A stretch of 34,880 bases of DNA from Pseudonocardia sp. (GTDB lineage: Bacteria > Actinomycetota > Actinomycetes > Mycobacteriales > Pseudonocardiaceae): assembly GCF_025965585.1 (NCBI RefSeq), contig NZ_JAOPWR010000372.1, forward strand, positions 1 through 34,880. The letters are read 5' to 3'. Below, in pieces: positions 12,921 to 34,652 of the stretch. A model generated the notes under the pieces. The model made no database searches. It had not been told where the DNA came from and saw only the letters and a program-made list of their open reading frames with translations. How positions within the stretch are numbered: position 1 is the first letter of the stretch; each line of letters starts with the position of its first letter. Both the position numbers and the translations under genes were made by a program.

Positions 12921-14252
12921 GTGACCACCATCCAGGAATCCGTCGATCGAGTCGTACCCGTCCCGGACAACGTGGTGCGGCAGATCGTCCTTCCCGAGGG
13001 CCACCGCGACGAGGTGCGGTTGTTCGAGGCCTACTCCTGGCTGCGGGAGCACAACCCGCTCGCCCAGGTGACCGTCGAGGGCTACGACCCGCTGTGGCTC
13101 GTCACCAAGCACGCCGACCTGATGGAGATCGAGCGCCAGCCGCATCTCTTCACCAACGGTGGAGCGGACGAGCCCGGCTCGCACAACCCGATCCTCGGGA
13201 ATCAGGCAGGTGACGCGTTCACCCAGAGCCTGACCGGCGGCAGTCTGCGCATCCTCGACGCGCTGCCCTACCTCGACCCGCCGGAGCACTCGACGGTCAA
13301 GGATGTGGCCAACGACTGGTTCCGGCCGGCGAACCTGAAGAAGTGGGAGGACCGGATCCGCGGGCTGGCTCAGGAGGCGATCGGCAAGTTCCTGCACAGC
13401 GGCGCGAACGACATCGACTTCGTCAAGCAGTTCAGCGTCTTCTACCCGCTGCATGTGGTGATGAGCCTCTTCGGGGTCCCGGAGGAGGACGAACCCCGGA
13501 TGATGGCGCTTACCCAGGAGTTCTTCGGAACCGCGGACCCGGACACCGCCCGCGCCGACGTCGAGCCGCTCACTCCGGAGGCCGCGGCACAGCAGTGGGC
13601 GGCGGCGATCGCGGACTTCTACGCCTACTTCGACACGCTGGTCGAGGCGCGCCGGGCGGAGCCGCGCGACGACCTCGCGACGATCATCGCGGTGGCGAAG
13701 GACGAGAACGGTGAGTACTTCCCCAAGACGTTCGCCTACGGCTGGTTCGTCGCGATCGCGACCGCCGGACACGACACGACGTCGAGCACCCTGGCCGGCA
13801 CGATCGAGGCGCTGGCCCAGCACCCCGACCAGCTCGCCGCGATCCAGAAGGACCCGGCGCGGATCCCGGACCTGGTCAACGAGGGCCTGCGCTGGGTCTC
13901 GCCGGTCAAGCACTTCATGCGGCGGGCGACGCAGGACTACGTGCTGCGCGGCCGGGAGATCAAGAAGGGCGACCGGTTGATGATGCTCTACCAGTCGGGC
14001 AACCGGGACGTGGACGTGTTCGACGAGCCCGACACTTTCGACAGCACCCGCAAGCCCAACAAGCACATCGCGTTCGGTTACGGGCCACACATGTGCATCG
14101 GGCAGCACCTGGCGAAGCTCGAGATGCGGATCATGTTCGAGGAGCTGCTGCCGCGGATCCGCTCGGTCGATGTCACCGGGCCGCGCAAGGTGCTGCAGAC
14201 CAACTTCGTCGGCGGCCTGCAGAACCTGCCGGTGCGGCTCGAGCTGACCTGA
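12921..14252 (+). CDS. Cytochrome P450, CYP108 (P450terp)-like
   Basis: A 443-residue soluble bacterial P450. The oxygen-binding I-helix is AGHDTTSS (282-289), the ExxR pair is Glu321/Arg324, and the haem ligand is Cys392 in [18 protein letters not shown]. The C-terminal half resembles P450terp as I recall it: [43 protein letters not shown], and a [16 protein letters not shown] end. CYP108 members hydroxylate the allylic or benzylic methyl of alpha-terpineol, p-cymene and related compounds. The GTG start at 12921 is preceded by GGAGGA at 12908-12913; the frame is open to 12828 but lacks a ribosome site there. Ferredoxin, ferredoxin reductase and alcohol dehydrogenase follow, giving a complete class I electron chain plus the next oxidation step. 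The substrate is inferred. Confidence 0.95.
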
Positions 14253-14375
14253 CCCACGCTCCGGCGGGGGTCGCGTCAACCTCGCCGGGGTGATAGTGGC
14301 CGGGCCCGTTCCCGCGACCTCTCGGCGGCGCGACACCTCATCGTTCCCTCGTCCCCGAACCCCTTCGGAGCTCCC

Positions 14376-14696
14376 ATGCCCATGGTCACCTATGTCGTCC
14401 CCGACGGATCGACACACGTCGTCGACGTCCCCGCCGGGCAGAGCGTGATGGACGGCTCGGTACGCAACAACCTGCCCGGGATCGTCGCCGAGTGCGGCGG
14501 TAGCTGCTCCTGCGCGACGTGCCACGTCCACCTCGACGAGGAGTTCGCCGACCTCTTCGACGAGGCGAGCGACGAGGAACGGGACCTCCTCGAATACGCC
14601 GAGGACCGATCTCCGCACTCGCGGCTGTCCTGCCAGCTGATCGTCCGCGCCGGCTGCGACGGTGTGCGCTTGACGGTCCCCGACAGCAACGGATGA
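14376..14696 (+). CDS. [2Fe-2S] ferredoxin (adrenodoxin/terpredoxin type)
   Basis: A 106-residue ferredoxin of the class I P450 partner type. The cluster cysteines follow the C-x5-C-x2-C-x36-C rule: Cys40, Cys46, Cys49 and Cys86, within AECGGSCSCATCHVHL and RLSCQL. Cys44 is an additional cysteine inside the binding loop. The acidic patch DEEFADLFDEASDEE (54-68) is where the reductase and P450 would dock. GGAG at 14367-14370 serves the ATG at 14376; an ATG at 14382 is less well spaced. It transfers electrons from the reductase encoded next to the P450 encoded before it. The 123-bp gap to the P450 gene contains no other gene. Confidence 0.96.
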   Translation: MPMVTYVVPDGSTHVVDVPAGQSVMDGSVRNNLPGIVAECGGSCSCATCHVHLDEEFADLFDEASDEERDLLEYAEDRSPHSRLSCQLIVRAGCDGVRLTVPDSNG

Positions 14697-15934
14697 CCCG
14701 CATGCCGACGGAGTCAGCCGCCCGCTCCCGGGTGGTCGTCGTGGGTGCCGGTCACGCTGCAATCACGCTGGCCGGCCTGCTCAGGCAGGCCGGCCACGTC
14801 GGGGAGATCGTGATGATGGGGGACGAGCTCGACCACCCCTACCAGCGGCCGCCGCTCTCCAAGAAGTTCTCCGACGGCAACCTGGAGCAGTGGCTGCGAC
14901 CACCGGAGTTCTACGGCGAGCAGGACATCACGCTCCGTCTCGGCGAACGGGTCCTGACGATCGACGTGCCACGGCAGCACATCGCCACGTCATCCGGCGA
15001 CGAACACCCCTATGACGTGCTCGTGCTTGCTACCGGCGCACGCTCCCGCCCGTTGCCCGTCCCCGGGATCGAACTGTCGGGTGTCGGCCACCTCCGGACG
15101 CTCGAGGACGCCCGCGTGCTGCGGAAGTGGGTCGCCGACGGACGGCGCCTGGTGATCGTCGGCGGCGGCTACATCGGTCTGGAGGTCGCCGCCGTCGTGC
15201 GTGCGCGAGGCGGTGAGGCGACAGTTCTCGAGCGGGAGGAGCGCGTCCTGGCCCGCGTGGCGAGTGCCGACCTGTCCGCGATCATGAGCGACCGGCACAC
15301 CACCGAAGGAACGTCGATCCGCACCGGCGTACACGTGACCGGATTCGAGGGTGCGGGGTGCGTGTCCCGAACCGTGCTGGCAGGCGGGGCGAGAATCGAC
15401 TGCGACGCGGTGCTCGTCGGCGTGGGTGCCGTGCCCAACGACGACCTGGCTGTCGAGGCCGGCTTGGACGTGGCACCCGGCGGTGGCGTGCTCGTCGACG
15501 GAGTCTGCCGCACGAGCGTGCCCTCGATCCTCGCCATCGGCGACGTGACCTCTCGGCCGTTGCCGGGCCTGGCCGCCACCCGACGGCTGGAGAGCATCCC
15601 CAGCGCTACCGAGCAGGCGCGGCAGGCGGTCGCCGCGATCCTCGCTACCGAGCCGCCCCCGCCTGAGACCCCGTGGTTCTGGTCCGACCAGTTCGATCTC
15701 AAGCTGAAGATCGCGGGAATCGTCCGACCGGGCTCTGAGATCGTGCTTCGCGGCACACCGGCCTCCGGGCGCTTCGCCCTGTTCCACCTGCACGACGACG
15801 TGGTGGTGGCTGTCGAGTCCGCCAACGCCTCGCCGGAGTTCATGGCCGGAAAGCGCTGGATCGGCTCCGGCAGCCGCGTGGACCCGAAGCGGCTCGCGGA
15901 TCCCGGTGTCGCCCTGCGCGACGCCGAGGTCTGA
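14693..15934 (+). CDS. FAD-dependent NAD(P)H-ferredoxin reductase
   Basis: A 413-residue reductase of the putidaredoxin/terpredoxin reductase family. The FAD-binding fold is VVVVGAGHAAITLAG (14-28), the NAD fold is VIVGGGYIGLEVAAVV (about 154-169) and the FAD pyrimidine motif is AIGDVTSRP. PYQRPPLSK is a typical FAD-contact stretch of this family. The ATG overlaps the ferredoxin stop (ATGA), so ferredoxin and reductase are made in step. The first fold has His-Ala where many homologues have another small residue pair (GxGHAAI rather than GxGxAGV), a mild variation. It supplies NAD(P)H electrons to the ferredoxin and so to the P450. Confidence 0.95.
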   Translation: MTRMPTESAARSRVVVVGAGHAAITLAGLLRQAGHVGEIVMMGDELDHPYQRPPLSKKFSDGNLEQWLRPPEFYGEQDITLRLGERVLTIDVPRQHIATSSGDEHPYDVLVLATGARSRPLPVPGIELSGVGHLRTLEDARVLRKWVADGRRLVIVGGGYIGLEVAAVVRARGGEATVLEREERVLARVASADLSAIMSDRHTTEGTSIRTGVHVTGFEGAGCVSRTVLAGGARIDCDAVLVGVGAVPNDDLAVEAGLDVAPGGGVLVDGVCRTSVPSILAIGDVTSRPLPGLAATRRLESIPSATEQARQAVAAILATEPPPPETPWFWSDQFDLKLKIAGIVRPGSEIVLRGTPASGRFALFHLHDDVVVAVESANASPEFMAGKRWIGSGSRVDPKRLADPGVALRDAEV

Positions 15935-16006
15935 TCTCCGGCGCTGATCCCCCCGAGCACCGATCCACAAGCCTCACTGCACACCCGACCCACCCAGGAG
16001 TTCCGA

Positions 16007-17125
16007 ATGAGAAGTCGCGGCGCTGTTCTCCGCCACGCTCCAGGCAAGTTCGAGATCGTCGACCTCGAGGTCGACGATCCCCGCCAGAACGAGATCCGTG
16101 TGAAGATGGTCGCCTCGGGGCTGTGCCACTCCGATGACCACATGGCCACCGGTGACCTGCCGGTCGCGTTGTACCCGGTGTGCGGGGGACACGAGGGCGC
16201 CGGCATCGTCGAGTCGGTGGGTCCCCACACGACGGGCTTCGTGCCGGGCGACAAGGTCGTCTTCTCGTTCCTGCCGGCCTGCGGCAAGTGTCGGTGGTGC
16301 TCCACCGGCCACCAGAACCTGTGTGACCTGGGCGCGCTCGCGCTCGTGGGTTCCCGCTGGGACGACCCGACGAGTTTCCGTCTGAAGCTCGACGACGGCA
16401 CGCCGGTCGCGCAAGCGCTGGGGATCTCGACGTTCTCCGAGTACACGACCGTCTCGGTGGACTCGGCGATCAAGGTGCCGGCGGACACACCACTGGAGCG
16501 GGCGTGCCTGCTCGGCTGCGCCGCGGGCACCGGATGGGGTTCGGCTGTGAACACCGGTGAGGTCAAGCCCGGCGACACGGTGATCATCATGGGTGTCGGT
16601 GGCATCGGATCGATGGCGGTGCAGGGTGCGGTGCACGCGGGAGCCGCGCAGGTGATCGCGGTGGACCCCGTGGCGTTCAAGCGGGAGACCGCCGAGGCGC
16701 TGGGCGCCACGCACTCCGTGCCGTCCATCGACGCGGCCACCGAACTCGCCCAGAGCTTCACCAACGGCCAGGGTGCGGATGTCGCGATCGTGACGGTCGG
16801 AGTGATCCACGGCGAGCACGTGGCGCAGGCTTTCGCGTCGGTCCGCAAGCAGGGCACGGTCGTGGTCACCGCACTCGGCAACGTCACCGAGGTGGGTATC
16901 CCCGTACCGCTTCTCGAACTGGTGCTCTTCGAGAAGAAGATCAAGGGGTCGCTGTTCGGGTCGTCCAGCCCGAACGCAGACATCCCCAGGCTGCTCGGCC
17001 TCTACCAGAGCGGGATGCTCAGGCTCGACGAGCTGATCACCACCGAGTACGGGCTCGACGACATCTCTCGTGGCTACGAGGACATGCACGCGGGCACGAA
17101 CATCCGCGGCGTCATCCGCTTCTGA
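16007..17125 (+). CDS. Zinc-dependent alcohol dehydrogenase (NDMA-dependent family)
   Basis: A 372-residue medium-chain dehydrogenase. Catalytic zinc ligands are Cys40 (SGLCHSD) and His62-Glu63 (GGHEG). Structural zinc cysteines are Cys92, Cys95, Cys98 and Cys106 (ACGKCRWCSTGHQNLC). The NAD fold is IIMGVGGIGSMAVQGA. Length and the VFSFLPACGKC and FGSSSPNADIPRLL stretches resemble the actinobacterial NDMA-dependent alcohol dehydrogenase family, which includes members with tightly bound NAD or mycofactocin-linked recycling. It has a good ribosome site (AGGAG before 16007). It follows the P450 reductase by 72 bases and probably oxidises the P450-made alcohol to an aldehyde, as the alcohol dehydrogenase of the terp operon does. 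Whether it needs mycofactocin cannot be told here. Confidence 0.93.
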   Translation: MRSRGAVLRHAPGKFEIVDLEVDDPRQNEIRVKMVASGLCHSDDHMATGDLPVALYPVCGGHEGAGIVESVGPHTTGFVPGDKVVFSFLPACGKCRWCSTGHQNLCDLGALALVGSRWDDPTSFRLKLDDGTPVAQALGISTFSEYTTVSVDSAIKVPADTPLERACLLGCAAGTGWGSAVNTGEVKPGDTVIIMGVGGIGSMAVQGAVHAGAAQVIAVDPVAFKRETAEALGATHSVPSIDAATELAQSFTNGQGADVAIVTVGVIHGEHVAQAFASVRKQGTVVVTALGNVTEVGIPVPLLELVLFEKKIKGSLFGSSSPNADIPRLLGLYQSGMLRLDELITTEYGLDDISRGYEDMHAGTNIRGVIRF

Positions 17126-17196
17126 TCGACCCGGTTCGCCGTCGCCCGATCGCGGGTGACCGTACGTCGTGACGTGACCCGCAGGAGGTGTCGACC

Positions 17197-17694
17197 ATGC
17201 AGAAGTTCTCCGCCATGAGTGCCGGACCGTCGTCGGGAGCCGGCGGGCGGCGTCGAAGGCGCCGGCCCGATCCCGAGCGCCCTGTCGTGACCGGCCGAGA
17301 CGCCTACCCCTGGCAGATCGGCCTGGCCGCGGTCGTCTGGATGGCCCTGGGCGCCCTGCTGATCTCGTCGGGGATCGGTTTCACCGGTTCGGATGCGGAT
17401 ACGGAGCAGGTCGACAAGATCTCCGGATCGCTGGGTGCGGACACGGTCGTGAGTACGGCCCAGCACGGCGGGGGAGTCCTGTGGATTCTGCTCGGCATCG
17501 CGGTTCTCCTCGTCGCGGCGCTCCTCGCGATCGGCCAGGGCTGGAGCCGGTACGTGCTGTTCGCGCTCGGCTTCACCGCCGTCATCGCGCTCGGTGTGGC
17601 GGCCCGGTGGGAGGTCGTCCTGGCGATGGGCTTCTTCGTGGCCGGTTCCCTGCCACTGCTCGCCCCGCGCGCACACCGGTACCTCGCGCCGTGA
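17197..17694 (+). CDS. Membrane protein of unknown function (4 predicted TM helices)
   Basis: A 165-residue protein. The first 35 residues are basic and low-complexity (GGRRRRRR), cytosolic by charge. Hydrophobic segments lie at about 40-60, 93-113, 117-135 and 138-155. The start at 17197 is set by AGGAGG at 17183-17188; an earlier in-frame GTG at 17188 overlaps that ribosome site. I do not recognise the family. Its stop overlaps the start of a second small membrane protein (GTGA), and the pair immediately precedes the YrbE permeases in the same direction, so they may be accessory to the Mce transporter or the link between it and the P450 cassette. Confidence 0.75.
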   Translation: MQKFSAMSAGPSSGAGGRRRRRRPDPERPVVTGRDAYPWQIGLAAVVWMALGALLISSGIGFTGSDADTEQVDKISGSLGADTVVSTAQHGGGVLWILLGIAVLLVAALLAIGQGWSRYVLFALGFTAVIALGVAARWEVVLAMGFFVAGSLPLLAPRAHRYLAP

Positions 17695-18107
17695 CCGCCG
17701 AACGGAGCACCCGCAGGCGCAACGTCCCCGAACCGGTCCTGGGCTGGATCGACTGGGCGCAGACGGCTCGCGGCGCCTCGACCGCGTTCAGCATCCTGGT
17801 CGTCGGAGGCCTGGCCCAACCGGTGGTCGGTACGGTCGCGCCCCCGGTGGGGGCGGTCTGGCTGATCATCGTCGCCGTCCTCGCCTTCGCCGTTGCCGGG
17901 TGCAGGATCGGTGACGCAGGCCTTCCGATCGCGCACGGCGCGGCCACCGCGGTCTTCGGCTACCTCTTCGTGCTGCCCCTCGTGGTGTTCGCCGCGCACG
18001 GCATCGATGCCGGACAGGTCGCGGGCACTGCGGCCGTGGCCGTCGTCGTCGGCGGTGCGGCGGGCTGGCTGGCCGGTCAGGCCAGGTCGCGTACCCCGCA
18101 GGGATGA
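17691..18107 (+). CDS. Small membrane protein of unknown function (about 4 TM helices)
   Basis: A 138-residue protein beginning with GTG overlapping the previous stop. After a basic N-terminus (AERSTRRRNVPEPVLGW), hydrophobic helices span about 30-48, 54-71, 82-102 and 109-128. The end is short and basic (QARSRTPQG). I do not recognise the family. The frame is open upstream to 17481 but that is a shadow of the preceding gene. Translational coupling with the gene before it suggests that the two products act together, perhaps as a heteromeric membrane unit next to the Mce permease. Confidence 0.7.
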   Translation: MTAERSTRRRNVPEPVLGWIDWAQTARGASTAFSILVVGGLAQPVVGTVAPPVGAVWLIIVAVLAFAVAGCRIGDAGLPIAHGAATAVFGYLFVLPLVVFAAHGIDAGQVAGTAAVAVVVGGAAGWLAGQARSRTPQG

Positions 18108-18225
18108 CTCGGACGATCTCAGGTGCGGATGTGGCGCAGGCCACTGTCCATGACTGTAGGAACACGCTCGGCGTTGGCGACGTCCACCTCCGCCCGACTC
18201 TCCCCGATCGATCACAAGGAGTTCG

Positions 18226-19095
18226 ATGACCACCGCGACCGACAGCGGGTCTGCCGGAGCCCCAGGAATTCTGGAGATACCGCGCCGGACAGTGGGCGGC
18301 CGGCTCCGCTCGGTGGGGTCCGGTCTGCGCGGGACGTTGCAGCAGGCCGGGGAAATGGCCGAGCTACTGGCGACCGTCGCCTACAGCGCCGTTCGACACC
18401 CGCGCGGGTACTGGGGGGATGTCCGCGACCAGCTCTTCGAGGTCGTGAAGCTCTGCTGGTTCCCGATGGCCGTGGCATGCGTGGCCTTCGGCTTCGGTGC
18501 GCCCGGACTTCAGGCGGGCAACCTCTTCATCCTGTTCGGGATCCCGGAACGGCTGGGTTCCTTCTTCGTCATGGCGAGCGTTCGTGAGTTCGCACCCTGG
18601 ATCAACGCGATGGTCGTGGCCGGCGTGGTCGGCACAGCGATGACAGCCGACCTCGGCGCCCGCAGGATCCGGGAGGAGATCGACGCCATGGAGGTGCTGG
18701 GCATCGATCCGGTCCGTGCCCTGATCCTTCCGCGGGTCATCGCGGTCACCATCATGACCGGCCTGATGGACCTCGTCGCGCTCACGTTCGGCGTTTTCGG
18801 AGGGTATCTCGCGGCCATGCAGCTCGGTGCTGGCTCCGCGGCGTTCGAACAGAACTTCTTCTCCAACGCAACGACGATCGACCTCTGGGGCAGCGTTCTG
18901 AAGACGACGCTCTTCGGGCTGATCATCGGGGTGGTGTGCTGCTACAAGGGCTTCCGCGCCGGGGGCGGCCCGATCGGCGTCGGCCGCGCGGTGAACCAGG
19001 CGGTCGTCATCTCCTTCGCGGCGATCTGGAGCTTCAACTTCGTCTTCACCACGATCCTGCTCGGGCTCTACCCCGAGATCCAGGTGTACCGATGA
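18226..19095 (+). CDS. yrbEA: YrbEA: MlaE-family ABC permease of Mce system
   Basis: A 289-residue permease of the MlaE/YrbE family. The hallmark cytoplasmic coupling segment REEIDAMEVLGIDPVRALILPR lies at about 149-170, with transmembrane helices around it and at the C-terminus. GFRAGGGPIGVGRAVNQAVV near the end is also typical. Two YrbE proteins form the membrane channel on which the Mce ring sits; the ATPase binds the EExDAxxVLGI helix. AAGGAG precedes the ATG. It starts the transporter proper, 13 bases before the second permease. Letters A and B are by position only. Confidence 0.96.
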   Translation: MTTATDSGSAGAPGILEIPRRTVGGRLRSVGSGLRGTLQQAGEMAELLATVAYSAVRHPRGYWGDVRDQLFEVVKLCWFPMAVACVAFGFGAPGLQAGNLFILFGIPERLGSFFVMASVREFAPWINAMVVAGVVGTAMTADLGARRIREEIDAMEVLGIDPVRALILPRVIAVTIMTGLMDLVALTFGVFGGYLAAMQLGAGSAAFEQNFFSNATTIDLWGSVLKTTLFGLIIGVVCCYKGFRAGGGPIGVGRAVNQAVVISFAAIWSFNFVFTTILLGLYPEIQVYR

Positions 19096-19108
19096 CCGGG
19101 GAGAGCTG

Positions 19109-19966
19109 ATGACCATTACCGAACCGAACCCGGGCGGCGCGACGACGGCGCCCGAGGTGCCGTCTGCGGCCCCGAGGCCGTCCCTCGGTACGCAACTGCG
19201 CGATGGCGTCGCCGCCGCCGGGGAGATCTTCCGGTTCGCCGGACAGGTCGTCCGCGGATTCCGGGACGTACGGCACTACAGCAGCGAGGTGCTGCACCAG
19301 ACCGCCATCCTGATCCTGTCCAGCGGTCTGATCATCTGGGTGATGCAGGGCGTGATGGGCACCGTCTGCGGCCTGGAGGCGAGCTACACACTCAAGCAGA
19401 TCGGAGCGCCGCTCTACTCGGGCATCTTCAACGCGTACTGCTCCATCCGCGAGATGGCTCCGTACATGTGGGGATACATCTTTGCGGCCAAGGTCGGCTG
19501 TGGGCTGGTCGCCGAGCTCGGCTCGATGCGGATCGCCGACGAGATCGACGCCATGGAGGTCATGGGCATCAAGTCCAGGAGTTTCCTGGTCGGCACCCGT
19601 GTCATCGCCGCGTGGCTCGCCATCCCGTTCCTCTACACCGTCGGCCTCGGGATCATGTACGTCACCATGTACCTGGTGACGGTCGTCCAGCTCGGCGGTG
19701 TCTCACCCGGCGGCTACCTCTACATCTTCTGGCTCTACCAGAACCCCCTCGACTTCCTCTACTCGATGATCAAGGTGATGTCCTTCGGGACGACGATCGT
19801 GTTCGTCGCCTGCTACTTCGGCTTCAACGCGAGTGGCGGACCGGTCGGGGTCGGCAGGAACACCGCGAAGTCCATGATGATCAACATGGTCCTCATCCAC
19901 GTGCTCGGTGTGCTGGGAACGCAGCTGTTCTGGGGTCTCAACCCGAACGCGCCGATCGCCAACTGA
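19109..19966 (+). CDS. yrbEB: YrbEB: MlaE-family ABC permease of Mce system
   Basis: A 285-residue partner permease. The coupling motif is ADEIDAMEVMGIKSRSFLVG (about 146-165). Transmembrane segments include LILSSGLIIWVMQGVMG and the C-terminal MMINMVLIHVLGVLGTQLFW. GFNASGGPVGVGRNTAKSMM matches the conserved C-terminal cytoplasmic loop. The ribosome site GGGGAGAG precedes the ATG by a few bases. It likely pairs with YrbEA as a heterodimer in the inner membrane. The ATPase gene follows 23 bases later. Confidence 0.96.
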   Translation: MTITEPNPGGATTAPEVPSAAPRPSLGTQLRDGVAAAGEIFRFAGQVVRGFRDVRHYSSEVLHQTAILILSSGLIIWVMQGVMGTVCGLEASYTLKQIGAPLYSGIFNAYCSIREMAPYMWGYIFAAKVGCGLVAELGSMRIADEIDAMEVMGIKSRSFLVGTRVIAAWLAIPFLYTVGLGIMYVTMYLVTVVQLGGVSPGGYLYIFWLYQNPLDFLYSMIKVMSFGTTIVFVACYFGFNASGGPVGVGRNTAKSMMINMVLIHVLGVLGTQLFWGLNPNAPIAN

Positions 19967-19989
19967 CCCCACCCGCCGAGGAGCAAGCG

Positions 19990-20847: not shown

Positions 20848-20881
20848 GCGCCGTCGACAACTGAATCGATGTACTCCGAAA

Positions 20882-20906
20882 GCCGTTCCGCACAATGCGG
20901 GGCGGC
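20882..20906 (+). terminator. Hairpin between ATPase and first mce gene (attenuator or processing site)
   Basis: GCCG (20882-20885) pairs with CGGC (20903-20906), and CCGCA (20888-20892) pairs with TGCGG (20896-20900), around a CAA loop and a 2x2 internal loop. It lies in the least compact junction of the Mce operon and may reduce read-through or protect an mRNA end. No T-tract. Confidence 0.35.
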
Positions 20907-20950
20907 TACCGGTGTCTCCTGCTTCCGGTCCGGAGAATAAATCTCTGAAG

Positions 20951-26359: not shown

Positions 26360-26360
26360 T

Positions 26361-27731
26361 ATGACCACCGGAAGCGTCACGAACCGCGTGCGGACGAAGT
26401 TCCGCGTCACTCTGCAGCACATCCGGAGCGAGCCTGGCCTGGGACGCAACGTCGTCATCGTCCTCGTCCTGCTCGCGCTGGCCATGATCAGCGGCGGGAT
26501 CATCCTGGGCAACCAGCGGTTCACCCCGCCGTGGGCCGACCGCTACATCGTCAATGCCGCGTTCGAGGCCGCGCCGGGCGTCTCACCCGGAAACGGCCAG
26601 GAGGTCCGGATCGCGGGCGTCATCGTCGGGCAGATCAGCGACGCCACGATCGGGCCCGACGGCAAGGCGCGGCTCGCACTCGACATGAACCCGGGCACCA
26701 CGATCTACGACAACGCGCGCCTGGTCCTGAGGCCGAAGAGTCCGCTCAACGAGATGTATGTCGAGATCGCTCCCGGGGGCCCTCCCGGCAAGCCGGTCCC
26801 GTCCGGAGGGTCGCTGCCGGTGACCAACACGGTCCGACCAGTGCAGATCGACGAAGTGCTGGGCCACCTCGACGGGACCGCACGCCAGGGACTCACCGAT
26901 CTCCTCGCCGAGTCGGACATCGCCCTGGCCAGTGCCCCGCAGGCGCTGCCGGGCGGGCTGGATGCGACCGCCGCGGTCACCCAGAAGCTCCAACCGGTGG
27001 TCGCCCAGCTCGACCAGCGTCGCGACACCCTGCGCAAGCTCGTGACGGCACTGGGCCAGATCTCGTCGGCCGTCGGCAGCAACGACTCACGGCTGACCCA
27101 ACTTGCCGGTTCACTCCAGACGACACTGGGAGCACTCGCGCAGAACAATCAGCCCCTCGACTCGGCGCTCGGGCAGCTGCCCGAGCTGACGGCTCAGCTC
27201 CGTGATGCGATGACCCAGGTGCAGGGGCTCGCCGACCAGCTCGACCCGACCCTGCGCGATGTGCAGTCCGCGTCGCAGGCCCTGCCGGAGGCCCTGTCCC
27301 GCGTCGAGGGCACCGCGCACCAGCTCGACGCGACGATCGACGTCGCGGAGCCCGTCGTGCAGAAGGCCGGCCCGGTCGTCGCCGACCTCCGTCCCTACGT
27401 GGACGACCTGAACCGCGCCCTGCCGGCGCTGGCGCAGACGACGGCACGACTGGAGCCGTTCACGGGCACGATGCTCGACTACCTGCCCGACATCGGCGCC
27501 TTCTTCGTCAACACCCGCGACATGGTCAGCATGCGTGACGGCAACGGCGGGATCCTGCGCGGAATCCTCACCTTCAACCCGCAGACCCTGCTGCCCCCGC
27601 CGGCGAATGTGCAGGGCCTGGCCGGTGGGCCGGTGACCGGGCCGCTCGGTACCGCGGACAAGCCCGTCCCGGTGCCGCTCGTCGGCAACGCGATCAACCA
27701 GGTCCCGTCCCCGATCATCGCCCCGAGATAG
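26361..27731 (+). CDS. mceE: Mce family protein, fifth of six (MceE position)
   Basis: A 456-residue Mce subunit starting one base after the previous stop. An N-terminal cytosolic segment of about 29 residues precedes the anchor (NVVIVLVLLALAMISGGIIL). The MCE domain contains GNGQEVRIAGVIVGQISDA and SPLNEMYVEIAPGGPP, the latter close to the family consensus. Late in the protein, LDYLPDIGAFFVNTRDMVS and GILRGILTFNP are typical of actinobacterial Mce C-terminal regions. No lipobox is seen, although MceE subunits of mycobacteria are lipoproteins, so the letter reflects order and not orthology. Confidence 0.93.
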   Translation: MTTGSVTNRVRTKFRVTLQHIRSEPGLGRNVVIVLVLLALAMISGGIILGNQRFTPPWADRYIVNAAFEAAPGVSPGNGQEVRIAGVIVGQISDATIGPDGKARLALDMNPGTTIYDNARLVLRPKSPLNEMYVEIAPGGPPGKPVPSGGSLPVTNTVRPVQIDEVLGHLDGTARQGLTDLLAESDIALASAPQALPGGLDATAAVTQKLQPVVAQLDQRRDTLRKLVTALGQISSAVGSNDSRLTQLAGSLQTTLGALAQNNQPLDSALGQLPELTAQLRDAMTQVQGLADQLDPTLRDVQSASQALPEALSRVEGTAHQLDATIDVAEPVVQKAGPVVADLRPYVDDLNRALPALAQTTARLEPFTGTMLDYLPDIGAFFVNTRDMVSMRDGNGGILRGILTFNPQTLLPPPANVQGLAGGPVTGPLGTADKPVPVPLVGNAINQVPSPIIAPR

Positions 27732-27740
27732 GTGAGTTCC

Positions 27741-29048
27741 GTGCCAGCACTCGTCAAACCGCAGACCGTGCGGCTGCTCGTGGTCGTCGTGTTCGCGGCT
27801 CTCTGCGCCAGCATCTTCACCTTCCTCTGGGTGAACTCCGGCGGGAAGGTCCCCGGCTATACGCCTGCTGCCTACCGCGTCTACGTCGACGTCCCGCGCG
27901 TGGCCAACCTCGTCTACTTCGGCGATGTGATGATCGCCGGCGTGCCGGTCGGCAAGGTGGCGGACATCCAGGAGGAGGGCGACCACGCCCACGTGGCGAT
28001 GGACCTCGACCCGGCTGAGGCGCCGATCCACGGGGGTGCGGTCATCCAGGTGAGGGCCAAGAGCCTGATCGAGGAGACCTACCTCGAGATCATCGACGGA
28101 AGCGGACCCGCGGTCCCCGCGGGCACCACGCTGCCCGAGGGATCGGCCCGCCCGCCGACTCAGGTGAACGACGTCCTGACATCGCTCGACGCGCCCACCC
28201 GCGACTCCCTCGGGCGCTCGATCCGAGCTGCGGGACTCAGCACCGCGGACAGCAAGGACGCCATCTCTGGCGCGGTGGAAGGCCTTGGTGAGCTCGGCCG
28301 CAACGGGCGGGACGCCCTCGACGCCCTGGCCGCCCAGTCCGACGACCTGAAACAGCTCACCGGCTCCACGGCGAAGGTCCTGGCTGCGCTGAACACCCAG
28401 CAGGGCCAGATCGCCCAACTCGTGGAGGATACCGACACTGTCACCAAGGCCACGGCCGATGGAGCCGATGACGTGCGCTCGGTGATGCGGGCGCTACCGC
28501 CGGTGCTGCAGAGCGCGCGTACCGCAAGCGGCAAGCTCCAGATCCTGTCGGCATCACTCGCACCCGTAGCATCCAACCTGCAGGCCGCGGCACCCGACCT
28601 GTCGGCAGCCCTCACCGAATTGCCGGCGACCGCGGCCGACCTCCGCGCGACACTGCCATCGCTGAACGGGACCCTGGACCGGGCACCCGCCACGCTCAAC
28701 CGGGTGCCGACGCTCACCGACGACCTGAACGGCTTCATCCCGCCCGCGTCCGGGATCCTCCGCGACGTGAACCCGGCGCTGACCTACCTGCAGCCCTACG
28801 CGCCGGACGTCGTGTCGGTGTTCCAGAACTTCATGGCCGCGCTGGCAGGAGGCGACGCCCGCGGTCACGTCTACAAGATCATGCCGCTCTTCAGCGAACA
28901 GACGTTCAAGGGGATCCCCGTGAACACCAACACCCTGCCACTGCGGGCCAGGCAGAATCCGATCCCCACTCCGGACGACGCGGTGCACCCGGGCACCATC
29001 AACACGGCCCCGTACCCGCGGGTCCAGCGGGACGGGCCGCCGCGGTGA
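27741..29048 (+). CDS. mceF: Mce family protein, sixth of six (MceF position)
   Basis: A 435-residue Mce subunit. The GTG at 27741 is preceded by AGGTGAG, so I prefer it over the in-frame GTG at 27732. The anchor is VRLLVVVVFAALCASIFTFL. The MCE domain shows FGDVMIAGVPVGKVADIQEE and SLIEETYLEIIDGSG. The helical region ends with PYAPDVVSVFQNFMAALAGG, a conserved late motif. Its stop overlaps the start of the RND-type transporter gene (GTGA), showing that the transporter and the Mce ring are expressed as one unit. Letter by order only. Confidence 0.92.
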   Translation: MPALVKPQTVRLLVVVVFAALCASIFTFLWVNSGGKVPGYTPAAYRVYVDVPRVANLVYFGDVMIAGVPVGKVADIQEEGDHAHVAMDLDPAEAPIHGGAVIQVRAKSLIEETYLEIIDGSGPAVPAGTTLPEGSARPPTQVNDVLTSLDAPTRDSLGRSIRAAGLSTADSKDAISGAVEGLGELGRNGRDALDALAAQSDDLKQLTGSTAKVLAALNTQQGQIAQLVEDTDTVTKATADGADDVRSVMRALPPVLQSARTASGKLQILSASLAPVASNLQAAAPDLSAALTELPATAADLRATLPSLNGTLDRAPATLNRVPTLTDDLNGFIPPASGILRDVNPALTYLQPYAPDVVSVFQNFMAALAGGDARGHVYKIMPLFSEQTFKGIPVNTNTLPLRARQNPIPTPDDAVHPGTINTAPYPRVQRDGPPR

Positions 29049-31450
29049 CGTCCGGCTGTCGGAAATCCGTCGCCACCGCGATGCGCCTCCGTGACCCGCG
29101 CCGGTGGGCTCGCGCACTGCCGGGTCGGCTCGTGGCCGCTCCGGGAGCGGCGCTGCGCTGGCTGCGGTACGACCTTCGGCGGGCTCTGGCGGCGGTTCTC
29201 CTCCTCGCGGCCCTGGCCGTGATCGTCGGTGGTCTCACCAGGCTCCGCACCGAGACCGGGCTCGACTCGTTCCTGCCGTCCGACGACGTGGCGGCGCAGC
29301 AGTTCGACGAGCTCGCGCGGGGGTTCGGTGGCGATCCGGTGGTGGTGCTGCTTGAGTCTCCCCAGCCGCGGGAGCTGCTCCAGGGCGACCGCCTGGACCG
29401 TCTGGTCCAGCTGGAGGGCACGCTCGCGAAGCTGCCCGACGTGGCGACGGTCTACGGGCCCGGCACCTTGCTGAACCAGATCGCCGGGCGGACCCAGGAT
29501 CTGTTGGCGGAGCTGAGCGGCACGCGTGACGCCGACCGGGTGGTGGCCGAACGCAAGGCACTTGCCGCGGGCGACTCCGCGGCGGCGGCCACCGCGGCCG
29601 CGGACGCCGCCGCGGCGGCCTTCGACGACCGCTACGCGCCCCTGCTCGCACAAGGTCTTCCGGCCGGCCTGCCGACGCTGAAGAATCCGTCGTTCGTGAA
29701 CACCGTGGTCTTCGGCGGGGCCGGCACGCCGCGTCCGCAGTGGCGGTTTGTCGTCCCGTCCGACAACGCCGTTGCCATCCTCGTCCGTCCGCGCGAGGGT
29801 CTCGATGCCGCCGCTGCCTCCGCGCTCGTCTCCGGTGTCACCGATGCGGTCGGCAGGGCGGACCTGGGAGGGACGACGACCGTCTCCGGGGTTCCGGCGG
29901 TCGTGGCTGCGCTCTCGGACCAGACCGCGCGGAGCGCTCCGCTGCTGGGCGGTCTCGCCCTGATCGCGGTGAGCGCGTGCTTCCTGCTCGTGCGCTGGGC
30001 CCGCCGCCGTGACCGGTTGATCCCTGTGGCGACCACCGTTACAGCGATCGCGATCACGCTCGCGGGTTACGGCTGGATCGGGAGGCCCGTGTCGCTGGGG
30101 GTGGTTGCCTTCCTCTCGGTCGTGCTCGGCGTGGGCTGCTACTACCCGACCTACCTCCTGCTCGGCGCTCCTCGTCGGACGGTGCTGACAGTCGCGCTCG
30201 CCACGGCGTTGAGCTTCGGCACGCTGGTGCTCTCACCACTGCCGCTGGTCCGTGACCTCGGCGTCACTCTCGCGTGCGGTGTCCTCGTCTCTGCGTTGGT
30301 CGGCCTCACCGCACCGCTCCTCGCCGGTGCCCGTCCCGCTCCGGCGACCGCCGTCCGCGAGTCCGGGAGCGGTCCGAGCGGTGGTGGCCGAGGCCGGCGA
30401 GCGTGTGCTCTCGGCAGCCTCGCCGTCCTCGTCGCGGTGGCCGGCGTCGGGTGGGCCGCGCTGCCGTCGATCCCGCTGCGCACCGACGTCGACCAGTTCG
30501 CTGGCGGGCTCTCCGTTCTCGACGACGCCCAGCACGTCGAGGACGTCATCGGCTCCTCGGGCGAGGTCGATGTGGTTCTCCGCGGACCGGACACCATGTC
30601 GCCGGCGGCCTTCGCGTGGCTCCGGAAGGTCCAGGAGACAGTAGTGAGCCGGCACGGCGACGCCATGCGACCGGTGGTCTCGCCGCCGGCTCTGTTGCCG
30701 TTCCTCGGCCCGAACCCGACCTCGGGGCAGATCCTCGCCGCGCTGCAGCTGCTCCCGCGGTACCTCACCGGCGCGGTGCTGTCCGACGACCGGTCGACGG
30801 CCATCCTCAGCTTCGGGGTGCGGCTCGAGGACCTCGACCAGCTCGCTGCCGCCCGAGATGACCTGCGGGCCACGTTGCCGCCACCGCCGGCCGGATACGA
30901 CATGGAGCTGACCGGACTGCCGATGGTCGCCGTGCGCGGCAGCGAGCTCGTCTCCGCCGACCGCGTCCTCGCCAACATCCTGGGGATCGTCGTGGCCGGA
31001 ACCGTGCTGGCTGTCGGCCTGCGGCGGCGGACCGACGCGGTTCTGGCCGTGGGCTCGGCGGTCCTCGCCACGGGTACCGGCCTGTTCCTCATCTGGCTGA
31101 GCGGCACGGAGCTCACTCCGATCACCGTTGCGCTCGGCTCCCTCACGGCCGCCGTGGGCTGCGAGTTCGCGGTCGTGCTGGCCGAGGCCGCCCGCCGGGG
31201 CCGCAGCCCCCTGCGCATCGCCGTGCCGCTGGTCACCGGGACTTCGGTCCTGGGCTATGCGGTGCTGCTGGCGTCCGGTCTGCAGGTGGTCCGCCAGTTC
31301 GGACTCCAGCTCGCCGTCGCCGTCGTCCTGTCCATGCTGAGCTCGCTGGTGGTGCTGTGGGTGCTGCGGTCGTTCCGACCACCAGTGCCTGCAGATCCCG
31401 GAGCTCAGCGACCGTCTCGAAACGAACTGTCCGTGGTGGGAGCTGACTGA
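29045..31450 (+). CDS. RND/MmpL-like transporter
   Basis: An 801-residue membrane protein with the two-fold RND layout. TM1 lies at about 47-64, followed by a large outer loop starting with DSFLPSDDVAAQQFDELARG. A cluster of helices follows at about 295-430 (GGLALIAVSACFLLVRWA onward), then a seventh helix near 455 and a second outer loop with RTDVDQFAGG. The last helices run from about 665 to 785. It resembles MmpL/HpnN-type lipid transporters but is shorter than typical mycobacterial MmpL proteins. GTG start overlapping the last mce gene by four bases. An RND partner in the same operon as Mce suggests joint handling of a hydrophobic substrate or export of an envelope lipid that supports uptake. 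The direction of transport cannot be read from sequence. Confidence 0.88.
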   Translation: MTSGCRKSVATAMRLRDPRRWARALPGRLVAAPGAALRWLRYDLRRALAAVLLLAALAVIVGGLTRLRTETGLDSFLPSDDVAAQQFDELARGFGGDPVVVLLESPQPRELLQGDRLDRLVQLEGTLAKLPDVATVYGPGTLLNQIAGRTQDLLAELSGTRDADRVVAERKALAAGDSAAAATAAADAAAAAFDDRYAPLLAQGLPAGLPTLKNPSFVNTVVFGGAGTPRPQWRFVVPSDNAVAILVRPREGLDAAAASALVSGVTDAVGRADLGGTTTVSGVPAVVAALSDQTARSAPLLGGLALIAVSACFLLVRWARRRDRLIPVATTVTAIAITLAGYGWIGRPVSLGVVAFLSVVLGVGCYYPTYLLLGAPRRTVLTVALATALSFGTLVLSPLPLVRDLGVTLACGVLVSALVGLTAPLLAGARPAPATAVRESGSGPSGGGRGRRACALGSLAVLVAVAGVGWAALPSIPLRTDVDQFAGGLSVLDDAQHVEDVIGSSGEVDVVLRGPDTMSPAAFAWLRKVQETVVSRHGDAMRPVVSPPALLPFLGPNPTSGQILAALQLLPRYLTGAVLSDDRSTAILSFGVRLEDLDQLAAARDDLRATLPPPPAGYDMELTGLPMVAVRGSELVSADRVLANILGIVVAGTVLAVGLRRRTDAVLAVGSAVLATGTGLFLIWLSGTELTPITVALGSLTAAVGCEFAVVLAEAARRGRSPLRIAVPLVTGTSVLGYAVLLASGLQVVRQFGLQLAVAVVLSMLSSLVVLWVLRSFRPPVPADPGAQRPSRNELSVVGAD

Positions 31451-32754
31451 TGTCGTCGACGAAGACGCACGAAACCGCAACCGAGACCCAGACCGGGACC
31501 GACCCGAAGTCGGGTGCGCCGGAGGACGCCGTATCGGAGGACGCCGTATCGGAGGACGCTGCGCCCGAGGCCGCCGCGTCCGAGGACGTCCCGGAGGCCG
31601 GCATCAATGCCGAGGCCGCGGTGGAACCGAAGCCGGCCGCAGATCCGGTGTCCGATGTGGATGGTGCGCCGAGGCTCGTTGCCCGAATCGCCTCCCGGCT
31701 GCGTGCGGTGCGCCCGCCCTCCACGCGGCGCGGCCGGATCGTGCTCGCGCTCGTGCTGGTCGTGGTCCTCGCCGCGGGAGGAGGTGGCTTCACCTGGTGG
31801 CTGACCTCGCGGCTGCCGGTCGGGGTGGCCTTCCGTGCTGAGGGCCAGGATGTCACTGTGACCGATCTCGATCACCAGATGCAGACGCTGACCGCTCTGT
31901 ACGGGATGCAGAAGCCCACCGACCCGGCGGGGCTCGACACGTTCCGGCGTGACTTCGCGAAAGCGTCCGCGATCGGCATGGTGATCGACCGTGCGGCCGC
32001 GAACAAGAACATCGCGATCGCCGATCGCGCGGCGCAGGACTTCCTCGACCGCTACATCGACCAGTACTTCGGGTCTGGTGACGCCGCGCGTACGAACTTC
32101 GTGACCGCACTCGGCAACGTGGGAACTTCTGAGACCGACGTGCTCAGCGAGGTCAAGCGGCAGATGGCGGCCTCCGAACTGTTCGACGCCGTCACCGCGA
32201 ATGTCCCCGCAGTGACCGACGCCGATGTCGACAAGGCCTTCACCGAACGCAAGGACTCGTTGGCGACACCGCAGCGCCGCCAGCTCAACAACATCGTGGT
32301 AGCCGACCAGGCGACCGCCGACCAGGTCGTCGCCCAGCTCAAGAGCGGAACGGCGTTCGCGGACGTCGCCAAGGCCAGCAGCCAGGACGCATCGAGCAAG
32401 GACAAGGGCGGAGCGATCGGCACCCTCTCCGCAGATCAGCTGGAGAAGCCCTACGCTGACGCGGCATTCGCTGCCGCCCAAGGTGCGGTGTTCGGTCCGG
32501 TCCAGACCCAGTACGGCTGGAACGTCGGCATGGTCACCGCGGTTCTGCCCTCCACCCCCGCCGTCGCCAGCGCTGTGCACGAGCCGCTCCGCAACCAGTT
32601 GCTCATGGAGCGCAGGGGCGCCGCCTGGCGCAGCTTCCTTGGTGGCGAGCTGGCGGACGCCGATGTCAGGTACGCCCCCGACTACGCCCCCGCCGACCCC
32701 GACGGGATCCCTTCCACGCCCTCGGCGCTCGTGCCCTCGTCCGCTCCGCACTGA
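31450..32754 (+). CDS. Membrane-anchored parvulin-type peptidyl-prolyl isomerase / SurA-like foldase
   Basis: A 434-residue protein. The first 95 residues are acidic and Ala-rich, with a short tandem repeat (EDAVSEDAVSEDA). A signal-anchor helix lies at 97-119 (IVLALVLVVVLAAGGGGF). A SurA-like helical region (125-270) precedes a parvulin domain at 275-365 with RRQLNNIVVA, FADVAKASSQDASSKDKGGA and VQTQYGWNVGMV. The standard RHIL start is degenerate (RQLNNIVV), so activity may be that of a chaperone more than an isomerase. TGATG overlap with the RND gene places it in the Mce operon. It probably folds or stabilises the exported Mce or RND domains outside the membrane. Confidence 0.87.
   Translation: MSSTKTHETATETQTGTDPKSGAPEDAVSEDAVSEDAAPEAAASEDVPEAGINAEAAVEPKPAADPVSDVDGAPRLVARIASRLRAVRPPSTRRGRIVLALVLVVVLAAGGGGFTWWLTSRLPVGVAFRAEGQDVTVTDLDHQMQTLTALYGMQKPTDPAGLDTFRRDFAKASAIGMVIDRAAANKNIAIADRAAQDFLDRYIDQYFGSGDAARTNFVTALGNVGTSETDVLSEVKRQMAASELFDAVTANVPAVTDADVDKAFTERKDSLATPQRRQLNNIVVADQATADQVVAQLKSGTAFADVAKASSQDASSKDKGGAIGTLSADQLEKPYADAAFAAAQGAVFGPVQTQYGWNVGMVTAVLPSTPAVASAVHEPLRNQLLMERRGAAWRSFLGGELADADVRYAPDYAPADPDGIPSTPSALVPSSAPH
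31521..31560. repeat. 15-bp in-frame tandem repeat in the foldase gene
   Basis: GGAGGACGCCGTATC occurs twice in a row (31521-31550), followed by a partial third copy (31551-31560). It encodes EDAVS units in the acidic cytosolic tail and could vary in copy number without breaking the frame. Confidence 0.9.
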
Positions 32755-32759
32755 GCGTC

Positions 32760-32975
32760 GTGGTCGTAGCCGTACTGGTCCACGTCGGCATCGCCCTGTC
32801 GCTCGTGCTGCTCGGGTTGTGGGGTCGCTCCCACGCGACGGTCGTGCCGCCGGTGTGGATGACGCACGCGGAGCGGCTGCGCAGGGCGAAGACGATGCAT
32901 CGGGGCGGCACGGCGTGCGTCGTGTTCGGTGCGCTCTACGCGATCGCTGCCGCAGTGGCGGTCATCGCGAGCTGA
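32760..32975 (+). CDS. Small two-helix membrane protein of unknown function
   Basis: A 71-residue protein with hydrophobic helices at about 2-21 and 51-70, separated by a basic loop (THAERLRRAKTMHRGG). It begins with GTG five bases after the foldase stop, with no good ribosome site, so it is probably translated by re-initiation. It is the last gene of the Mce operon. I do not recognise a named family, although short two-helix proteins of this shape are common in actinomycetes. Third positions are GC-rich, supporting real coding. Confidence 0.65.
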   Translation: MVVAVLVHVGIALSLVLLGLWGRSHATVVPPVWMTHAERLRRAKTMHRGGTACVVFGALYAIAAAVAVIAS

Positions 32976-33005
32976 CCAGGAATGCCCGGAAGGGTAACGG
33001 GGTGC

Positions 33006-33021
33006 CTCCCCACGGAGGACG
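33006..33021 (+). promoter_or_regulatory. CCCCAC box upstream of aldehyde dehydrogenase
   Basis: CTCCCCACGGAGGACG matches CTCCCCACGGATGATG in the P450 promoter (12818-12833) at 14 of 16 bases. CCCCAC ends 95 bases before the aldehyde dehydrogenase ATG. Candidate activator site shared by the pathway genes. Confidence 0.5.
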
Positions 33022-33107
33022 TCGATCCCCACGTCCGTGAATACCGTCGGCCACTCGTGCCGCGCCATCGCACCGTTCGACCCCATCCGCATCCGAAGGG
33101 ACAAAGC

Positions 33108-34571
33108 ATGAGCACGATCGACTACCCGCACCTTTACATCGGCGGTGGCTGGACCAGCCCCAGCTCGTCAGCCACGATCACGGCCGTGTCGGCCAGCACG
33201 GAGGAGGTGCTGGGATCCGTACCCGAAGGCACCGACGCCGACATCGACCGGGCCGTCGACGCCGCCCGCAGGGCCTTCGACGCGCCCGACGGCTGGTCGC
33301 GGCGCAGCCCGCAGGAACGGGCCGAGGTCCTGGAGCGCTTCGCCGTGGCACTCGAGGCCCGAGGCGGCGAGACCGCGCGCCGGGTGAGCATGCAGAACGG
33401 CATGCCGCTGGCCGTGGCGGGGCAGTTCGAGGCGTTCTTCCCCCCGGCGCTGCTCCGCTACTACGGCGGCCTCGTGGCGACGACGCCGGGGGAGGAGGAA
33501 CGCCCCGGCATGCTCGGAGGGGCTTCGCTCGTCATCAAGGAGCCCATCGGTGTCGTCGGCGCGATCGTGCCGTGGAACGTCCCCCAGGGCATCACGTTCC
33601 TCAAGATCGCACCGGCTCTGGCGGCGGGCTGCAGCGTCGTCCTCAAGCCGGCGCCCGAGACGGTGCTGGACGCCTTCCTGATGGCCGAGGCCGCGATCGA
33701 GGCGGGCCTGCCCGAGGGTGTGCTCAACATCGTGCCCGGTGGGCGCGAGCTGGGTGCCTACCTGGTGGCGCATCCCGGCGTCGACAAGGTGTCGTTCACC
33801 GGCTCGACGGCGGCGGGCCGGGCCATCGCGGAGACGTGCGGGCGGTTGCTCCGACCGGTGACGCTCGAACTGGGCGGCAAGTCCGCGGCCATCGTGCTCG
33901 ACGACGCGGACCTCTCCAGCACGATCGAGAGCTTCTTCGCCTCCACCCTGCTCAACAACGGCCAGATCTGCTGGTTGGGCACCAGGGTGCTGGCTCCGCA
34001 GAGCCGCTACCAGGAGATCGTGGACACCGTGACCGGGTTGGCGTCGTCGTTGGTCATCGGCGACTCGCTGGACCCGGCAACGCAGATGGGCCCGCTCGTG
34101 TCGGCCCGTCAGCGCGACCGGGTCGAGTCCTACATCGCCAAGGGCAAGGGCGAGGGCGCGCGGCTGACGACAGGGGGTGGGCGCCCGGATCGTGACAAGG
34201 GATGGTTCGTGCAGCCCACGGTGTTCGCCGACGTCGACAACAACCACACGATCGCCCAGGAGGAGATCTTCGGACCGGTGCTGTCGGTGATCCCCTACCG
34301 CGACGAGGACGAGGCGGTCGCAATCGCGAACGACAGCGACTACGGCCTGGGTGGTTCCGTGTGGACGGCGGACCCGGACCGCGGCGCCGCCGTCGCCAGG
34401 CGCGTGCGGACGGGGACGATCGGCGTCAACGCCTACGTCAACGATCCCTCGGTGCCGTTCGGCGGGATCAAGGCCAGTGGGATGGGCCGGGAGCTCGGAC
34501 CCGAGGCACTGGGTGCGTTCCAGGTCCTCAAGACCGTGTACCTCGACGTTTCCCGGCGCACGTCGGCCTGA
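33108..34571 (+). CDS. NAD(P)-dependent aldehyde dehydrogenase
   Basis: A 487-residue enzyme of the aldehyde dehydrogenase superfamily, normal length. PWNVP holds the catalytic-site Asn, FTGSTAAGRAI the cofactor glycine, Glu254 lies in LELGGKS, and the nucleophile is Cys288 in NNGQICWLG. EEIFGPVLSVIPY and NAYVNDPSVPFGGIKASGMG follow as expected. The ATG at 33108 is preceded by GAAGGGA; the frame is open to 32982 without a ribosome site. It likely oxidises the aldehyde made by the alcohol dehydrogenase at 16007 to the acid that the CoA ligases activate. It has its own promoter region and shares the CCCCAC box with the P450, so it may be co-regulated although it lies 20 kb away. Confidence 0.95.
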   Translation: MSTIDYPHLYIGGGWTSPSSSATITAVSASTEEVLGSVPEGTDADIDRAVDAARRAFDAPDGWSRRSPQERAEVLERFAVALEARGGETARRVSMQNGMPLAVAGQFEAFFPPALLRYYGGLVATTPGEEERPGMLGGASLVIKEPIGVVGAIVPWNVPQGITFLKIAPALAAGCSVVLKPAPETVLDAFLMAEAAIEAGLPEGVLNIVPGGRELGAYLVAHPGVDKVSFTGSTAAGRAIAETCGRLLRPVTLELGGKSAAIVLDDADLSSTIESFFASTLLNNGQICWLGTRVLAPQSRYQEIVDTVTGLASSLVIGDSLDPATQMGPLVSARQRDRVESYIAKGKGEGARLTTGGGRPDRDKGWFVQPTVFADVDNNHTIAQEEIFGPVLSVIPYRDEDEAVAIANDSDYGLGGSVWTADPDRGAAVARRVRTGTIGVNAYVNDPSVPFGGIKASGMGRELGPEALGAFQVLKTVYLDVSRRTSA

Positions 34572-34576
34572 CAGCG

Positions 34577-34602: not shown

Positions 34603-34652
34603 TCGAGGACGCCGTCCCATGGCTCATACTGTCTTGTCTGTCTGTCGGACAG

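Follow-up and report, generated by a model that had tools for sequence, protein, structure and literature searches.

Architecture of the locus

The window analysed here, a Pseudonocardia sp. sequence of 34,880 bases that makes up one entire contig of a 6.8-Mb draft genome (G000; 555 contigs), carries a Mce transporter operon embedded in a cytochrome P450 oxidation cassette. From position 12921 to 34571, all on the forward strand, a CYP108-like P450 gene is followed by genes for a ferredoxin, a ferredoxin reductase, an alcohol dehydrogenase (ADH), two small hydrophobic proteins (y1 and y2), a Mce operon with its own ATPase, an MMPL membrane protein, a PpiC-type peptidyl-prolyl isomerase and an aldehyde dehydrogenase (ALDH) (Table 1). 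Family matches and coordinates confirm the gene families, order, place and strand given in a sequence-only reading of this DNA, which had described a P450, ferredoxin, reductase, ADH, complete Mce operon and ALDH running in one direction; absent from its list were the ATPase, MMPL and isomerase genes, y1/y2, the LuxR-type regulators and the lower-pathway genes at 190-5524. The largest intergenic gap between the P450 and isomerase genes is 123 bases, with 4-base overlaps at six junctions, and 353 bases separate the isomerase from the ALDH gene. Scans of positions 15000-34880 returned no promoter-like sites and seven terminator-like sites, compared with 4.7 (standard deviation 2.0) in shuffled sequence.

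Table 1 Features of the window, with the family matches that identify them
Feature	Position	Strand	Family evidence
SDR1, short-chain dehydrogenase, start of lower-pathway block	190..960	+	PF13561 1.2e-57
Thiolase	960..2129	+	PF00108/PF02803
HMG-CoA-lyase-like enzyme	2173..3096	+	PF00682 2.3e-40
SDR2, short-chain dehydrogenase	3120..3875	+	PF13561 1.1e-60
Acyl-CoA ligase 1	3872..5524	+	PF00501 2.2e-77
LuxR-type regulator 1 with GAF domain	10145..11056	-	PF00196, PF01590
LuxR-type regulator 2 (luxR2), divergent from P450	11416..12606	-	PF00196; GAF_2 weak, 24.9 bits, below cut-off of 28.6
CYP108-like cytochrome P450	12921..14252	+	PF00067; P450tol 730 bits, P450terp 456 bits
2Fe-2S ferredoxin	14376..14696	+	PF00111; relatives include putidaredoxin, terpredoxin
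Ferredoxin reductase	14693..15934	+	PF07992, PF14759
NDMA-dependent zinc ADH	16007..17125	+	TIGR03989 547.5 bits (cut-off 440)
y1, small hydrophobic protein	17188..17694	+	no Pfam/NCBIfam match at 1e-3
y2, small hydrophobic protein	17691..18107	+	no NCBIfam match
YrbEA permease	18226..19095	+	PF02405 5.6e-56; YrbE1A of 8fed 3e-32
YrbEB permease	19109..19966	+	PF02405 2.4e-56
Mce ATPase, MceG/MlaF type	19990..20847	+	PF00005; MceG match
MceA	20912..22255	+	PF02470 25.4 bits (cut-off 25.1); TIGR00996 77 bits, below cut-off
MceB	22252..23658	+	PF02470
MceC	23655..24944	+	PF02470
MceD	24941..26359	+	PF02470
MceE	26361..27731	+	PF02470, PF11887
MceF	27732..29048	+	PF02470
MMPL/HAE3-type membrane protein	29045..31450	+	PF03176 23.3 bits (cut-off 20.5); TIGR00921 112 bits, below cut-off
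PpiC/SurA-type peptidyl-prolyl isomerase	31450..32754	+	PF13616, PF00639
ALDH	33108..34571	+	PF00171 1.8e-155

Membership of a CYP family is set at more than 40% identity, and at 47% (198 of 424 residues) to P450terp (CYP108A1) the window P450 belongs to CYP108, as the sequence-only reading had proposed. Its best match is P450tol of Rhodococcus coprophilus TC-2, with which it shares 308 of 431 residues (71%) and all 11 residues described as surrounding toluene in the P450tol structure (PMC11219674), whereas P450terp has eight of the 11. Toluene, for which the P450tol resemblance was the sole pointer, was set aside as growth substrate. CYP108N12 and CYP108N14 of Rhodococcus globerulus, likened to the window P450 through their descriptions rather than their sequences, hydroxylate p-cymene and limonene, and N14 also terpineols (PMC11279926); the text passages seen on these enzymes and on P450tol mention no Mce operon.

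The ADH is of the N,N-dimethyl-4-nitrosoaniline (NDMA)-dependent type, whose members use mycofactocin, and a mycofactocin maturase is encoded in the window's genome (641 bits, cut-off 265). The Pseudomonas terp operon comprises a P450, ferredoxin, reductase, ADH and ALDH; the likeness to it that had been drawn earlier holds for these five enzyme families, whereas the P450 itself, with three of the 11 pocket residues different from P450terp, is nearer to P450tol, and the NDMA-dependent ADH and the internal Mce operon set the window further apart.

With two adjacent PF02405 permeases, six consecutive PF02470 proteins (MceA barely over the cut-off) and a MceG-type ATPase, the Mce operon is complete and shares its core with Mce1 and Mce4 of mycobacteria and Rhodococcus. 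In the Mycobacterium smegmatis Mce1 structure, a tunnel of six Mce proteins leads to YrbE1AB and MceG (PMC9882608). The window operon differs from these systems in the position of its ATPase gene between yrbEB and mceA (linked mkl genes have been described directly upstream of other operons; PMC1810536), in the MMPL and isomerase genes that follow mceF, and in the lack of the C-terminal extension of MceG (PMC9882608): the ATPase aligns to MceG residues 5-250, ending one residue short of its own C-terminus. This extension is a trait of the orphan mycobacterial ATPase and not family-wide.

Linkage of CYP108-like P450s to Mce operons

Relatives of the window P450 were collected regardless of Mce by short peptide patterns, and 38 of the best 80 of 97 relatives have at least 63% identity to it (L009-L046). 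After the genome of L045, a 3.5-kb contig, was dropped, the other 37 fell in 31 genomes, which contain 53 P450 hits; four more genomes from the window's order were added (5 of 298 sampled, own included). Flanks were read for all but four of the 53 hits: one of these lies in G011, which nearly duplicates G010, and the others (in G005, G020 and G023) belong to the four hits above E 1e-180. Flanks of up to 20 kb on each side were read at 54 CYP108-like loci, window included, with distances taken edge to edge.

A Mce gene lies within 20 kb of 15 of these 54 loci, within 10 kb of 12 and within 5 kb of six. Of the 53 non-window loci, 39 have complete 15-kb flanks to left and right; Mce lies within 15 kb of 12 of these 39, where 1.3 are expected (P about 4e-9) from the density of 351 MlaE matches in 226.2 Mb of the 31 genomes, or about 0.78 Mce operons per Mb, the four added genomes not being counted. 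Collapsing the P450s at 80% identity leaves seven of 17 clusters linked to Mce (P about 7e-7), and at 75% six of 12. Measured between the midpoints of P450 and YrbE genes at 48 loci (a set without the second Streptomyces humicola P450, the four added genomes and the window), four pairs lie within 10 kb compared with 0.8 expected (P 0.009) and ten within 20 kb compared with 1.6 expected (P 3e-6). Among loci as first fetched, YrbE was found within 10 kb of seven of 38 CYP108-like P450s and none of 42 less related ones; of these 42, full flanks were available for 30, and three show 41-42% identity to the window P450. The two genes point in the same direction in ten of 12 genomes, window excluded (P 0.02), and in five of seven when counted by lineage. 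Common descent is not fully corrected for in these tests.

P450-Mce linkage thus exceeds chance, and the pairing recurs in other actinomycetes, where the sequence-only reading had proposed to look for the same gene order. That two common kinds of gene have simply come to lie side by side is very improbable: Mce operons are indeed frequent, and 27 of the 39 loci have no Mce within 15 kb, but the excess over expectation persists among the clusters collapsed at 80% identity, and the same gene set is interleaved in several genera.

Distinct Mce lineages beside the same enzymes

In a P450 tree built by a quick method, the Mce-linked P450s are a Nocardioides pair, that of genome G261, members of a Nocardia/Rhodococcus/Gordonia clade, the window together with Pseudonocardia terrae, and S. 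humicola. The YrbE tree, likewise quick and accompanied by long-branch warnings, separates three Mce groups: a first, window-type group that comprises the window, P. terrae, S. humicola, the two Nocardioides and a further seven loci located by way of their MMPL gene; a second with Nocardia, Rhodococcus and Gordonia; and a third with G261, whose closest relative in the tree is a Mycolicibacterium operon that is not on the contig of that genome's P450s. Gene orders differ as well: in Nocardia, ADH, ALDH, YrbE, Mce and ATPase genes precede those of the P450, ferredoxin and reductase, whereas in Rhodococcus wratislaviensis the order is P450, ferredoxin, ADH, YrbE, Mce, ATPase, ALDH and ligase. Because both tree groups and gene orders differ, distinct Mce operons have been placed among the same enzymes more than once. 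Of the 11 P450s in the Nocardiaceae clade, Mce lies within 20 kb of seven; the remaining four include three that are less than 2.5 kb from a contig edge on one side. Five CYP108-like P450s were matched in Patulibacter minatonensis (L187-L188, L194-L197), including an adjacent pair; flanks were read for four of the five, and none of these has Mce nearby.

Window-type operons have a characteristic set of extra genes. An MMPL gene lies 3' of mceF in all 13, and a PpiC-type isomerase gene is present in 12, the exception being G210, where the contig ends; the MMPL match of G051 (L090) contains one internal TGA, so that this gene may be broken. Genes like y2 occur near nine of the 13 operons (window included, E <= 0.01), either 5' of yrbEA or 3' of the isomerase gene, a recurrence that suggests that y1 and y2 may be accessory subunits; y1 relatives lie near the window-type operons of P. 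terrae, G278 and G298. A lipobox pattern scan, which is a weak test, found none in the window's Mce proteins, MceE included; G027 and G261 each showed the pattern in a single Mce protein, and it also appeared in MceF-region frames of the window-type operons of G051, G012 and G024 and in no other operon. Such operons are rare, an MMPL ortholog being present in eight of 298 genomes sampled from the order and two of 396 from the phylum (own included both times).

Eight window-type loci, the seven found through MMPL and G548, which was assigned by gene order and not by tree, have no CYP108-like P450. In G302 the neighbouring P450 matches P450cin at 198 bits and CYP125MRCA at 196; in G278 one of two P450s matches CYP268A2 at 449 bits; and that of G548 matches CYP125MRCA at 447 bits. 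G302 also has a lower block like that of the window (SDR/thiolase/HMG-lyase-like/SDR), and G210 its lyase and ligase. Since other P450s or none adjoin it elsewhere, the window-type Mce is not tied to CYP108 or to a single substrate.

An alternative is that the transporter imports another hydrophobic nutrient (a sterol, fatty acid or larger terpenoid) and that its proximity to the P450 reflects a broad lipid and terpenoid catabolic island. This would agree with the fatty acids and sterols known as Mce substrates (PMC9882608, PMC6498646) and with the CYP125-like and CYP268-like neighbours in G548 and G278. We consider it unlikely, since two further Mce lineages are also linked to CYP108-like P450s, Pfam scans of the window, whose family names hardly discriminate here, found no steroid-specific family, and in the tree the window-type YrbE is remote from the remaining Mce operons of G000, G016 and G029. 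None of those operons is labelled Mce4, and a generic steroid Mce4, which was considered and set aside, may still be what the window encodes.

Lower-pathway genes and the probable substrate

What lies beside related P450s bears on the compound that is oxidized. On a megaplasmid of Rhodococcus ruber MSA14, a P450 79% identical to that of the window is followed by genes for a reductase, ferredoxin, ALDH, NDMA-dependent ADH and Rieske dioxygenase alpha and beta subunits, then an SDR, ligase, amidohydrolase, extradiol dioxygenase and hydrolase, which we take to be a p-cumate-like route, although family models do not name the enzymes so. This linear megaplasmid (L253 1180-34752) carries two different CYP108-like cassettes about 19 kb apart, one of them followed by the p-cumate-like genes. 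Five such genes recur at 78-86% identity in the P450-Mce cluster of P. terrae, which also has an amidohydrolase at 37%, and six at 60-75% in that of S. humicola; more distant relatives are present in the clusters of Nocardioides RYN209, N. alni and Rhodococcus koreensis. P450-cassette relatives thus adjoin genes resembling the cym/cmt pathway for p-cymene and p-cumate (Rieske dioxygenase, dehydrogenase, extradiol dioxygenase and hydrolase), a set not found in the window, whose genome has it on another contig. A dioxygenase match at E 1e-40 is absent from N. kruczakiae, and that of G261 is distant (34%); Nocardioides Soil797 and Gordonia aichiensis have their nearest matches, at 51-52%, on different contigs. 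Because extra flanks were read for Mce-linked loci only, the frequencies of p-cumate-like genes with and without Mce are not comparable.

The window itself carries a different lower block. At least three of its four genes SDR1, thiolase, HMG-CoA-lyase-like and SDR2 recur at 68% identity or more in 17 of 46 P450 segments, the window counted among them; the lyase is missing from three of the 17. In R. koreensis this block also contains an enoyl-CoA hydratase, three acyl-CoA dehydrogenases, two ligases and a CoA transferase, an ensemble that resembles the limonene routes of Castellaniella (PMC4109377) and LiM6; in LiM6, an HMG-type enzyme has been proposed to split a 3-isopropenyl intermediate (PMC12583861). 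The window shares with these limonene/perillyl-CoA systems a ligase, a thiolase, dehydrogenases and an HMG-type lyase, and differs in that a P450 takes the place of anaerobic activation at the entry. Neither a ring hydrolase nor a hydratase was seen in the window, which spans the entire contig and stops there. Together, the p-cumate-like genes and the limonene-like lower block make p-cymene, limonene or a similar p-menthane the likely substrate. Most likely is p-cymene or a related p-menthane, and not specifically alpha-terpineol, the terp-operon compound named in the sequence-only reading, which was set aside on the grounds of a pocket nearer to P450tol than to P450terp.

Other genes flank the cassette. 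Positions 5646-9322 encode an FAD-dependent oxygenase paired with an acyl-CoA ligase; Nocardia RYN116 has relatives of both (58% and 44%) no more than about 12 kb away from its P450. Many related P450s elsewhere have a luxR2-like gene nearby. At the contig end, a short LuxR-like match on the minus strand (34.7-34.88 kb, 73% identity) is perhaps a truncated further regulator.

A proposed Mce-type importer for monoterpene catabolism

We give about even weight to the reading that the locus is a monoterpene catabolic cluster, most likely for p-cymene or another p-menthane, to which a Mce-type importer has been recruited. In such a cluster, the P450, receiving electrons through the ferredoxin and reductase, would hydroxylate a methyl group of the monoterpene; the mycofactocin-type ADH and then the ALDH would convert the product to an acid, and ring-cleavage or beta-oxidation genes would complete its breakdown. 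The six Mce proteins would form the hydrophobic tunnel of an ATP-driven envelope conduit, through which YrbEA/B and the operon's own ATPase would pull the hydrophobic substrate to the inner membrane or cytoplasm and so to the cytoplasmic P450, with MMPL, the isomerase and the two small membrane proteins as putative accessory parts. The shared substrate, inward transport and co-expression of cassette and operon are all presumed here. The common role first proposed for P450 cassette and transporter gains support from their recurrence in other genera with different Mce lineages, whereas the alpha-terpineol attached to it gives way to p-cymene or p-menthanes, which the p-cumate-like genes favour.

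The main rival is that the Mce/MMPL operon, co-induced with the P450, protects the envelope by clearing misplaced lipids or the terpene from the membrane, a role proposed for Ttg2/Mla in toluene tolerance, and does not feed the pathway. Efflux genes do accompany monoterpene degradation elsewhere: RND genes lie in the Castellaniella monoterpene island, where one table row, its column heads not visible, gives decreased growth for an RND mutant (PMC4109377), and an efflux set adjoins the LiM6 limonene operon (PMC12583861). The window's MMPL protein resembles the HAE3 RND family (TIGR00921, below cut-off), and its ATPase also matches MlaF/Ttg2A chains; MceG of the Mce1 complex, however, gives this ATPase a higher score (282 bits) than MlaF-type chains do (167-197 bits), Mkl-type ATPases cluster with importers (PMC1810536), and in several genera the operon is placed between oxidation genes. 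Protection ranks in our judgment as a minority possibility.

Several observations weigh against recruitment of a monoterpene importer. Small monoterpenes should cross membranes unaided, so that the need for one is not obvious. Among the 27 Mce-less loci counted above is that of R. ruber, which groups with the window and P. terrae and whose cassette is followed by p-cumate-like genes. The P450 of Rhodococcus PMG259, with flanks of 18.9 and 14.9 kb, has no Mce, and none of the 15 P450s of a sister clade found partly in the same Rhodococcus and Nocardia genomes, some with cut flanks, has one within 15 kb. Genes of this p-cumate-like kind also lie beside Mce-less P450s in R. ruber, Protofrankia, Frankia californiensis, Patulibacter and Rhodococcus PMG259. 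Of the eight window-type loci that lack a CYP108-like P450, three are near other P450s and five near none in the stretch read (two on short contigs of 23 and 30 kb). Finally, the p-cumate-like set of the window's own genome is on a separate contig, C315, where six genes with 69-77% identity occupy 24.0-30.1 kb and 10 kb or more remain to either contig end. The assembly record lists 5.13% contamination and 555 contigs; given this contamination, C315 and similar contigs could in principle derive from another organism.

More broadly, it is possible, though we put it somewhat short of even, that actinobacteria have at least three times turned Mce systems into dedicated importers that supply small cyclic monoterpenes to CYP108-type P450 pathways. 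The window type would then be a separate subfamily that has an ATPase, MMPL, isomerase and small membrane partners of its own and takes part in terpenoid oxidation generally, including in bacteria probably without a mycolate outer membrane. Among the titles and abstract openings listed by searches of open-licence papers, none links Mce to monoterpenes or P450s; individual parts of the system are known, and what seems to be new is how they are combined, that the combination recurs, and the window-type operon.

In summary, the recurrent pairing of CYP108-like P450s with different Mce lineages suggests that Mce importers may also serve small plant terpenes. If true, this would widen the Mce substrate range from fatty acids and sterols to small volatile hydrocarbons, provide a simple growth assay for Mce specificity with cheap compounds in non-pathogens, and hint at how actinomycetes take up plant oils; the compact operon, which has its own ATPase, is handy for heterologous study.

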